Assembly: GCA_020199775.1 (NCBI GenBank)
Contig: JAIVJZ010000004.1
Span: 186,001-250,000 of the forward strand
DNA from: Acidobacteriota bacterium
Lineage (GTDB): Bacteria > Acidobacteriota > Blastocatellia > Pyrinomonadales > Pyrinomonadaceae
Reading direction: 5' to 3'
DNA: 64,000 nt
Shown: in pieces, positions 553 to 3,176 of the stretch
Numbering within the stretch: position 1 is the stretch's first letter
How the letters are laid out: the number at the start of each line of letters is the position of its first letter
Notes under the pieces: generated by a model
What the model was told of the DNA's origin: nothing
Databases searched by the model: none
Seen by the model: only the letters and a program-made list of their open reading frames with translations
Made by a program: the position numbers and the translations under genes

Positions 553-902
553 CGACAAAAAGTTGTGCCAGCCCCCACGAAGTTTGTCGCTAATTGCCCG
601 CCGTCAGTTAACAGGGGCGACGCGCCTACAGTCTCAAAAGAGGACAGTTAGAGGCGAAAGTTACCCGCCGGTTTAGACGCTCGCGTTCAGGACGCGACGC
701 CGCATCAGGTTGTTACTCCACGCGTTCAGGCCGACGGGGCTCGCCGACGGCAAACCTTTACAACCGCGTACATCAACAGCCTATTCAATTTCTACTGTTT
801 TTCCTCCACCCGAGCTTAATTTTCGGATTCGGAGCACTCGGACGAAGCGAAACCGAAACAATTGAATTGTGAGTTTACCGGAGGAATATGCGGGTTCTCG
901 CC

Positions 903-1041
903 AAAAAAGCTGTGCCAGCTCGAATGGAGCGTAACCGGGGGGCGGTTCGGCGTCCGAGCTGGCACGGGCGGGCGTCTAAGTATCCGTTTCGGATGTTGCC
1001 TTGCGACTGACCGGCTTGTGGTAACCGGCTCATCCTAAACA
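903..1041 (-). ncRNA. Putative free-standing small RNA of about 139 nt
   Basis: Read on the minus strand, a canonical promoter (TTGACA, 16-base spacer, TATAAT) sits at 1075-1048 and predicts a start near 1041. About 80 bases further on, an 11-bp perfect inverted repeat (GTGCCAGCTCG at 965-955, its complement at 922-912) is followed by AGC and six Ts, a standard intrinsic terminator ending at 903. No ORF lies between. The RNA would fold into a GCCGG/CCGGU hairpin, a compact AUCCG-AAA-CGGAU hairpin and the terminator stem with a 32-base loop. I do not recognise a known family. A 6S-like RNA, an Acidobacteria-specific structured RNA or a trans-acting regulator are all possible. Confidence 0.6.
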
Positions 1042-1047
1042 GGTGGG

Positions 1048-1075
1048 ATTATACACGCCTTCACAAAACTGTCAA
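1048..1075 (-). promoter_or_regulatory. Sigma-70 promoter of the small RNA
   Basis: Minus-strand -35 TTGACA (1075-1070) and -10 TATAAT (1053-1048) are both perfect, with a 16-base spacer. The promoter fires leftward into the ORF-less interval that ends in a terminator. Confidence 0.65.
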
Positions 1076-1123
1076 CGCTTTTTTGTGACTAATCCGACAA
1101 AACTATTTAACAACGTGGCAAAG

Positions 1124-1153
1124 TTGACAGCAGACTCTGAGTCTCCCTATACT
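1124..1153 (+). promoter_or_regulatory. Sigma-70 promoter of tRNA-Phe
   Basis: TTGACA (1124-1129), 18-base spacer, TATACT (1148-1153). The predicted start near 1160 gives a 5' leader of about 24 bases before the tRNA. It is back-to-back with the small-RNA promoter. Confidence 0.65.
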
Positions 1154-1183: not shown

Positions 1184-1256
1184 GGCCAGGTAGCTCAGTT
1201 GGTAGAGCACCTGACTGAAAATCAGGGTGTCGGCGGTTCGATTCCGTCCCTGGCCA
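1184..1256 (+). tRNA. tRNA-Phe (anticodon GAA)
   Basis: The 73 bases fold into a full cloverleaf: acceptor GGCCAGG/CCUGGCC, D arm GCUC-AGUUGGUA-GAGC, anticodon stem CCUGA/UCAGG with loop CUGAAAA (anticodon GAA), variable GUGUC, T arm GGCGG-UUCGAUU-CCGUC, discriminator A. The CCA end is not encoded. The gene has its own promoter and terminator, so it is a monocistronic tRNA unit. Confidence 0.96.
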
Positions 1257-1370: not shown

Positions 1371-3176
1371 TTACGTGGTGATCTTTTTAGTTAGTAGGCG
1401 CGTAACGGTCGCCGTCAGACGCCCAGTGTCTTGTGGCTTGCGCAAAAAAGCATTGACGCCTGCGCGCAACGCGTCCCGCTCAATGTCGCTCGCCGACAAC
1501 ATAATGATCGGCGTGCGTCGCCGGTGTGGAAGTGCACGCGCACGCCGCGCAAGCTCTAAGCCTTCCTTGCCGGGTAAATGATTATCAAGGATGAGCAGGT
1601 GATAGCGCACTTTGCTTTCAATCTTGCGCATGGCCTCCGTCCCATCGGCACACAGTTCGACAGTCCAGCCTAATTCCTCTAAAGTTTCTTTCACGGCGTC
1701 AGCCACCGCCGGATAATCTTCAACGCAGAGAATATTGATGGTGCGTGCTTTACTGCGCGGGCGACGGCGACTCTTAGGATTAATGATGCTCTGCCTGCGC
1801 GTTTCGGGCGGGGTGCGCAAATAGGCGAGGTCTTTGTGTCGGCCTCCTTTGTCCAACATGGCGGCGAGTGTGCCGTGGTGTTGCGAACCGAGTAGGCGCG
1901 AGGCGCACGTGACGCTGCCCTCTCCATCGATCAGAGCGCGCCGCACGTATCTGGCTTCGAACGTGTGTACCCGCTCGTTGAGATTGAAGTTCGCCCAGAA
2001 ATCTACAACGCTGCGGACTCGTCTTTGTGATAGGGATGCGCGACGGTCAGACACAATACGGAGGGCACAGGCACGCAGACGCGAGATCGTTTCCATATCC
2101 TGCGTCTCTTTGAGCAAGTTATGTGCGCGCTCGTATGTTTCTAATAGTTCATACTCGTTGAGGCGGTCGGCGTGTTCCTCCATCAACGACAGCAAGGCGC
2201 GTCCGGCATCTTCGCCCGCCCCGGCTTGCTCCGCGAGGTCGGCGGAGCGTCTGAGCGTGTTGAGAGATTCAACGAAGTTGCCCAGCTTGGACAGCACACG
2301 GCCCTGCGTGGTCAGTGCTTCGGCTAACGCGCCTTGCTCGCCGCCTTTGGACAGCACGCGCACGGACTCGCGGATCGCGCTTTCGGCTGCGCGCAGTCTG
2401 CCCTGTTCCAGTAAGACGCGGGCGCGTGCTTCATCTATCTGCGCGACCGTTCCCCTATCTGCCAAGCTAACGAACAAGCTGCGCGCACGATTCAAGTGCT
2501 CATGAGCTTTTTCGTAATGCCCGATGGTGTAGAGTAGGAATCCTAAATTATTTTCCGCACGCGCCTTATAGCTAATATGACCTGCTTGCTCGAAGTGAAC
2601 GGATGCTGCTGTGTATTCGATGATGGCGCGGTCTGTGTAATCCGGTCGGTGCTCGGCTTTGCCTAAGAACATTAGAGTAAGGGCAAGCTCATTATGGAAC
2701 TTTCCTTTGAGGAAATGATTGCTGCTTTCTTGAAAGAACCCTGTCTCGTCCGTCAATATGCGCAACGAATCATTATAACGACCACTTAACGTTTCAACGA
2801 TTACAAGACGCAGTAATATCTTAGCCCGTAGCTCTTTCTCAACCACGTCATCTAGCCCCTTGAGTGCTTCCTGATAAACCACCCGCGCATCATCGTATGC
2901 TCCAACGCGGCGGTAGCAAAAACCGAGTTCGCTCCGTGCGGCGGCGACTCTGGCTGGCTCTCCTAATGCTCGGAAGCGGGTTATACTTTCGCTGATTAAG
3001 TCTTTGGACTTTTCTTGCGCTCCCTCAATCTGCCTGACGCTACCGAGATAGCCGGAGAGTGAACCGACGCGCAAAAGAACCTCCGCGGCTGTCAACTCGG
3101 ATAGTCCTTCAAGCGCGGGACTTAGACCGATGCCCTTCCATAATTCACCGAGGGCGTCGCGCGGACTCGTACTCAC
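1371..3176 (-). CDS. TPR protein with Fis-like HTH and C-terminal receiver domain (frameshifted N-terminus)
   Basis: The 601 residues fall into three parts. Residues about 1-380 are alpha-helical TPR-like repeats (LGFCYRRVGAYDDA, NNLGFLLYTIGHYEKA). Residues about 395-450 resemble a Fis-type DNA-binding segment. Residues about 478-597 are a response-regulator receiver with the acidic pair in CVEDY, the phospho-acceptor Asp in LLILDNHLPG, the Ser in MLSAS and the Lys in FLRKP. It probably takes phosphate from an unlinked kinase, since no histidine kinase is adjacent. The GTG start at 3176 is suspect: the preceding ORF ends GEYESAR and this one begins with RDALGELW after a few residues, which reads as one continuous TPR helix pair split by a frameshift. 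The real gene therefore probably starts at 3282. Confidence 0.75.
   Translation of the reverse strand: MSTSPRDALGELWKGIGLSPALEGLSELTAAEVLLRVGSLSGYLGSVRQIEGAQEKSKDLISESITRFRALGEPARVAAARSELGFCYRRVGAYDDARVVYQEALKGLDDVVEKELRAKILLRLVIVETLSGRYNDSLRILTDETGFFQESSNHFLKGKFHNELALTLMFLGKAEHRPDYTDRAIIEYTAASVHFEQAGHISYKARAENNLGFLLYTIGHYEKAHEHLNRARSLFVSLADRGTVAQIDEARARVLLEQGRLRAAESAIRESVRVLSKGGEQGALAEALTTQGRVLSKLGNFVESLNTLRRSADLAEQAGAGEDAGRALLSLMEEHADRLNEYELLETYERAHNLLKETQDMETISRLRACALRIVSDRRASLSQRRVRSVVDFWANFNLNERVHTFEARYVRRALIDGEGSVTCASRLLGSQHHGTLAAMLDKGGRHKDLAYLRTPPETRRQSIINPKSRRRPRSKARTINILCVEDYPAVADAVKETLEELGWTVELCADGTEAMRKIESKVRYHLLILDNHLPGKEGLELARRARALPHRRRTPIIMLSASDIERDALRAGVNAFLRKPQDTGRLTATVTRLLTKKITT

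Follow-up and report, generated by a model that had tools for sequence, protein, structure and literature searches.

The closest known parallel to the RNA described here is the B11 or 6C RNA of mycobacteria, in which C-rich loops repress translation by pairing with ribosome binding sites (PMC10470900). The 6C/B11 RNAs of Actinobacteria resemble the present RNA in being free-standing and in carrying a C-rich hairpin loop. Within Acidobacteria, Acido-1 (RF01686) and Acido-Lenti-1 (RF01687) have been reported as candidate non-coding RNAs (PMC2864571), while 6S RNA offers a further comparison, being likewise single-copy, small and structured. For Pyrinomonadaceae, Acidobacteriota that are abundant in soil, the open-licence literature yielded no work on regulation by small RNAs, and open-licence papers on small RNAs of Acidobacteria contain no description of this RNA.

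The window, a stretch of 64,000 nucleotides from a Pyrinomonadaceae genome, contains a small RNA gene on the minus strand with a predicted 5′ end at ~1041, a predicted 3′ end at ~903 and a length of ~138 nt. Coordinates of the gene, its elements and its divergent neighbour are shown in Table 1. The first-pass annotation had reported a TTGACA-16-TATAAT promoter, which lies exactly where it was placed and, when both strands are scanned, is the sole perfect consensus promoter in the window. The terminator that it described, an 11-bp stem followed by six T, was also located: GUGCCAGCUCG pairs with CGAGCUGGCAC over 11 bp, or 12 counting a further G-U, and is followed by AGC and the six T. DNA similarity to two same-genus genomes covers positions 1307-903 and ends at this terminator. 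The folding energy of the RNA is -53.8 kcal/mol, for which z = -3.7 relative to 200 dinucleotide shuffles, one of them folding equally well. The region had been described as free of open reading frames, a claim that needs amendment in that an ATG at 1033 starts a 52-codon frame reading through the terminator; it holds in the sense that no frame is conserved among homologues, as a stop ends it after 17 codons in a homologue from the same genus, and the longest fully internal ORF of the homologues has a median of 9.5 codons. A small protein gene was ruled out because the ORF is not conserved. Further downstream, the minus strand at 563-600 reads GTGGGGGCTGGCACAACTTTTT, which is similar to the 3′ end of the RNA itself, GCTGGCACAGCTTTTTT, and includes a G5 run, a potential partner for the C-rich loop of the RNA. 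This segment is not conserved at two same-genus loci, where no DNA similarity was found past 903.

Table 1. Positions in the window of the small RNA gene, its elements and the adjacent tRNA gene
Feature	Position	Strand	Supporting observation
Small RNA gene	903..1041	-	Covariance model R1 match at 899-1041, 136 bits; DNA conservation with sister genomes stops at 903
-35 element TTGACA	1070..1075	-	TTGAC[A/T/G] in 69/74 homologues
-10 element TATAAT	1048..1053	-	TATAAT in 67/74 and 16-nt spacer in 68/74 homologues
5′ domain, three-way junction with two hairpins (second with GCAA loop)	991..1035	-	Hairpins covary
Single-stranded CCCGCC (CC[C/U]GCC in most relatives)	967..972	-	Conserved in homologues
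3′ hairpin with 12-bp basal stem, acting as terminator	912..965	-	Paired in 99.1% of cells (77 sequences)
C-rich apical loop, CCCCC in the window, candidate seed	938..942	-	C-rich in 74/74 homologues
Terminal U run (six T)	903..908	-	U-rich tail in most homologues
tRNA-Phe(GAA), divergent neighbour	1184..1256	+	Same divergent position in 58/68 scorable homologues

BLAST searches of 60 relatives revealed homologues in ~20 genomes of Pyrinomonadaceae; the numerous weak matches of the DNA searches, at E values of 0.01-10, were taken as chance. An alignment of 18 homologues displays a mean column identity of 70%, with double changes at 12 of the 27 predicted pairs. Covariance model R1 produced full-length matches in 75 of 119 Pyrinomonadaceae genomes and none in 43 other genomes of the class, while model R2, restricted to the 3′ domain, matched 16 of 396 genomes across the phylum, every one a member of Pyrinomonadaceae. 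When 84,980 species were scanned with a pattern, all 47 hits fell in Acidobacteriota, and those whose title names a family are mostly Pyrinomonadaceae. The predicted RNAs have a median length of ~130 nt. Nearly all genomes with the RNA carry one copy, two being found among the 119 in G016 alone (L067 and L074), and one apparently negative genome (G064) does carry a divergent copy. The RNA is absent from part of one genus, and is thus dispensable there.

The secondary structure was evaluated over 77 aligned matches, comprising 76 homologues and one antisense artefact. The latter, an R1 match (L093:554-696, E value of 0.003), lies opposite a true homologue, where the model picks up the hairpin in antisense, and was dropped from the later alignment. 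Over the 77 sequences 93.5% of cells are paired, compared with 80.4% for shuffles and no more than 39% for slid controls, and covariation in the stems exceeds that of all shuffles and all slid controls. The promoter is preserved as well: among 74 distinct homologues, 12 of 12 consensus bases are present in 47 and 11 of 12 in 21, and 68 have 10-12 consensus bases at exactly 16-nt spacing, several of the poorly matching promoters being truncated by contig ends. Promoters and terminators do arise by chance at a low rate, and the pair seen here might have met in an intergenic region that holds no gene. Such a coincidence, to which we assign next to no probability, is refuted by the comparative data, since a promoter that is the only perfect one in the window is conserved together with the RNA and its stems across the family. 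On this comparative evidence the gene is real, and family-wide conservation of RNA, promoter and stems, with compensatory changes, supports the first-pass annotation in its proposal of an unassigned small RNA gene that has a promoter and a terminator of its own.

The 5′ domain is closed by GGAUG (1035-1031), which pairs with CAUCC (995-991), and this pairing is kept in relatives. The closing helix is part of the minimum-energy fold of 33 of the 37 homologues examined, although for the window sequence itself an alternative fold is slightly better. The internal hairpin AUCCG-AAA-CGGAU, pointed out previously, competes with the closing helix and is broken in a same-genus homologue, L046, which reads CGUAU. 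Conservation of the stems in relatives, on which the first-pass annotation had staked its proposal, thus extends to the terminator stem and not to the AUCCG hairpin. The three-way junction belongs to the lineage of the window; another lineage has a simple hairpin as its 5′ domain, with the segments ACCUUCC and ACCUGCC after it. The CCCGCC motif that follows the 5′ domain was invariant in the first 18 homologues and is nearly invariant in 74. The 3′ hairpin comprises, in order, the 12-bp basal stem, a conserved internal loop, a short apical stem and the apical loop. Double compensatory changes occur in 9 of the 12 basal pairs over 77 sequences, and the 3′ domain as a whole displays double changes at 14 of 19 pairs. 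The internal loop (GCCG / CGC[U/A]AC) is strongly conserved, and the stems around the apical loop vary freely. In all 74 homologues the apical loop lacks G and contains at least two C; it reads CCCCC in 40 of them, the other forms being UCCCC, CCCUC, ACCCC, UCCUC, UCUUC, ACCUC, CCAUC and UCCAC.

A cmscan of positions 850..1150 against all 4227 Rfam families, at E values up to 10, gave no match, and at the gathering threshold the whole window contained tRNA-Phe at 1184-1256 (+) alone. None of 20 divergent homologues matched Rfam at the gathering threshold, and neither the window nor these homologues matched RF01686 or RF01687. ARAGORN detected tRNA-Phe alone at the homologue loci, with no tmRNA. 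The Rfam search suggested by the first-pass annotation therefore assigns the RNA to no family and, with ARAGORN, agrees with its view that this is not tmRNA, RNase P RNA or SRP RNA. The size and single copy of the RNA would be compatible with a divergent member of a housekeeping class (6S, SRP, tmRNA or RNase P) or of another Rfam family. We consider this very improbable, as both the window and its divergent homologues failed to match and the architecture of the 3′ hairpin is unlike those classes. In particular, a divergent 6S RNA was ruled out because the 6S gene of this genome is elsewhere: RF00013 has its sole match in the genome at C11:335819-336010, with 52.2 bits, above the cut-off, and 6S RNA differs from the present RNA in architecture. 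Across the genomes searched with the covariance models, the RNA family is restricted to Pyrinomonadaceae; it is new, having no Rfam entry.

The genomic neighbourhood is largely constant on one side of the gene and variable on the other. Of the 68 loci that contig ends leave intact, 58 have divergent tRNA-Phe, at 172-375 nt from the 3′ domain; upstream regions inspected in the other families of the class contain no homologue adjoining tRNA-Phe. In the window, a near-perfect plus-strand promoter, TTGACA-18-TATACT (11/12), precedes tRNA-Phe at 1124-1153; it and the RNA promoter point away from each other. Immediately upstream of the -35 element, positions 1080-1103 hold TTTGTC-N8-CACAAA, an imperfect inverted repeat accompanied by an A-tract. 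Many homologues retain this repeat, which could be either an UP element or an operator situated between the promoters of the RNA and tRNA-Phe. Beyond the tRNA gene, the minus strand at 1371-3176 encodes a protein of 601 aa in which Pfam recognises TPR repeats and, at the C terminus, a response-regulator receiver domain.

Downstream of the RNA, 22 loci, among them the window, have a convergent amidohydrolase gene (Pfam Amidohydro_1). Other loci have convergent genes for GroEL or RecA, identified by eye from translations, and 29 loci have a co-directional small lipoprotein gene, which mostly starts 14-38 nt past the hairpin. The lipoproteins (L078, L081, L084 and 26 other loci) are predicted to have 124-152 aa with repeated TPTPGIP motifs (TPGIP repeats), and have no Pfam match. 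The 29 loci with this one co-directional family so close behind the RNA suggest a cis-acting leader or attenuator of the downstream gene, and some minimum-energy folds pair C-rich segments with the GAGG of the lipoprotein gene. However, the downstream gene is convergent in the window and at the other amidohydrolase, GroEL or RecA loci, and part of one genus has the lipoprotein gene but lacks the RNA, a similar-looking gene there being directly divergent from tRNA-Phe. Moreover, in the lipoprotein lineage the C-rich linker pairs with the start region no better within a genome (mean of -9.29 kcal/mol) than with start sites of other genomes (-9.44 kcal/mol; permutation p = 0.66). Cis-regulation of the lipoprotein gene by pairing of the seed with its Shine-Dalgarno sequence was rejected accordingly, own pairs being no better than swapped ones. 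The leader reading is quite improbable and is disfavoured for the window. A dual role, in which the RNA would be a free trans regulator in most lineages and elsewhere also the 5′ leader of the lipoprotein gene, with read-through coupling both outputs, appears unlikely. Since the downstream genes differ by lineage, no one cis target accounts for retention of the RNA, and the same variation points to a small RNA that is autonomous and not a leader. Judged from sequence comparison, the RNA is autonomous, with its own promoter and intrinsic terminator, a conserved structure and no conserved ORF.

The best reading, which we hold with slightly better than even confidence, is regulation in trans by base-pairing through the C-rich unpaired segments. 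A strong promoter of sigma-70 type would produce the ~138-nt RNA, and its own 3′ hairpin would end the transcript. We infer that the RNA acts in trans: the unpaired CCCCC loop and single-stranded CCCGCC would base-pair with G-rich segments in a restricted group of mRNAs, probably close to their ribosome binding sites, and would lower translation of these targets. Hfq, which possibly assists pairing, is encoded in 24 of the 25 genomes searched, including this one (C20:151567-151749, E value of 1e-26). An apical loop that varies yet never admits G, while the surrounding stems change freely, is expected of a pairing seed. The RNA perhaps works like 6C/B11 RNA, although it lies outside the 6C family by membership tests. 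The two come from different phyla and the present RNA has no Rfam similarity to the 6C covariance model. Moreover, 6C RNA contains two stem-loops with C-rich loops, whereas the present RNA has one C-rich apical loop, confined to the 3′ hairpin and lacking from the 5′ hairpins, plus single-stranded CCCGCC.

A further difference from 6C/B11 is that a scan showed no enrichment of exact seed complements at start sites. GGCGGGC was found 3 times at starts against 5 upstream and GGGGGG once against twice, while GGAGG was enriched (79 against 6). The scan covered 622 predicted genes in 798 kb of the 5.9-Mb genome with simple gene and start prediction, and is thus a weak negative. A general anti-Shine-Dalgarno mimic was discarded on the lack of enrichment at these 622 start regions, and the best predicted target duplexes were set aside as doubtful, one start resembling an internal MGxDKA motif. 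If mRNA pairing occurs, the lack of enrichment implies that targets are few or that pairing is imperfect.

The same result would suit an RNA whose 3′ hairpin loops bind a protein and titrate or guide it, as 6S and CsrB-type RNAs do, without pairing to mRNA. Unpaired letters are conserved in the apical and internal loops of that hairpin, and the near-consensus promoter of invariant spacing is as for an abundant RNA. The conserved internal loop counts against plain seed pairing, which needs none. In contrast, this genome encodes 6S RNA at another locus, the present RNA lacks repeated binding motifs like those of CsrB, and a loop that varies within C, U and A but excludes G suits pairing better than a fixed protein site. 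Protein binding is a serious rival, to be regarded as possible if somewhat doubtful.

This RNA family is strongly supported and not in Rfam, and it comes with a ready covariance model, a clear gene boundary and few candidate functional loops. The family can be annotated now in Pyrinomonadaceae and checked in metatranscriptomes. The downstream neighbour switches between lineages, and the one in which the RNA precedes a lipoprotein gene allows a free small RNA to be compared, in a natural setting, with what may be an mRNA leader.
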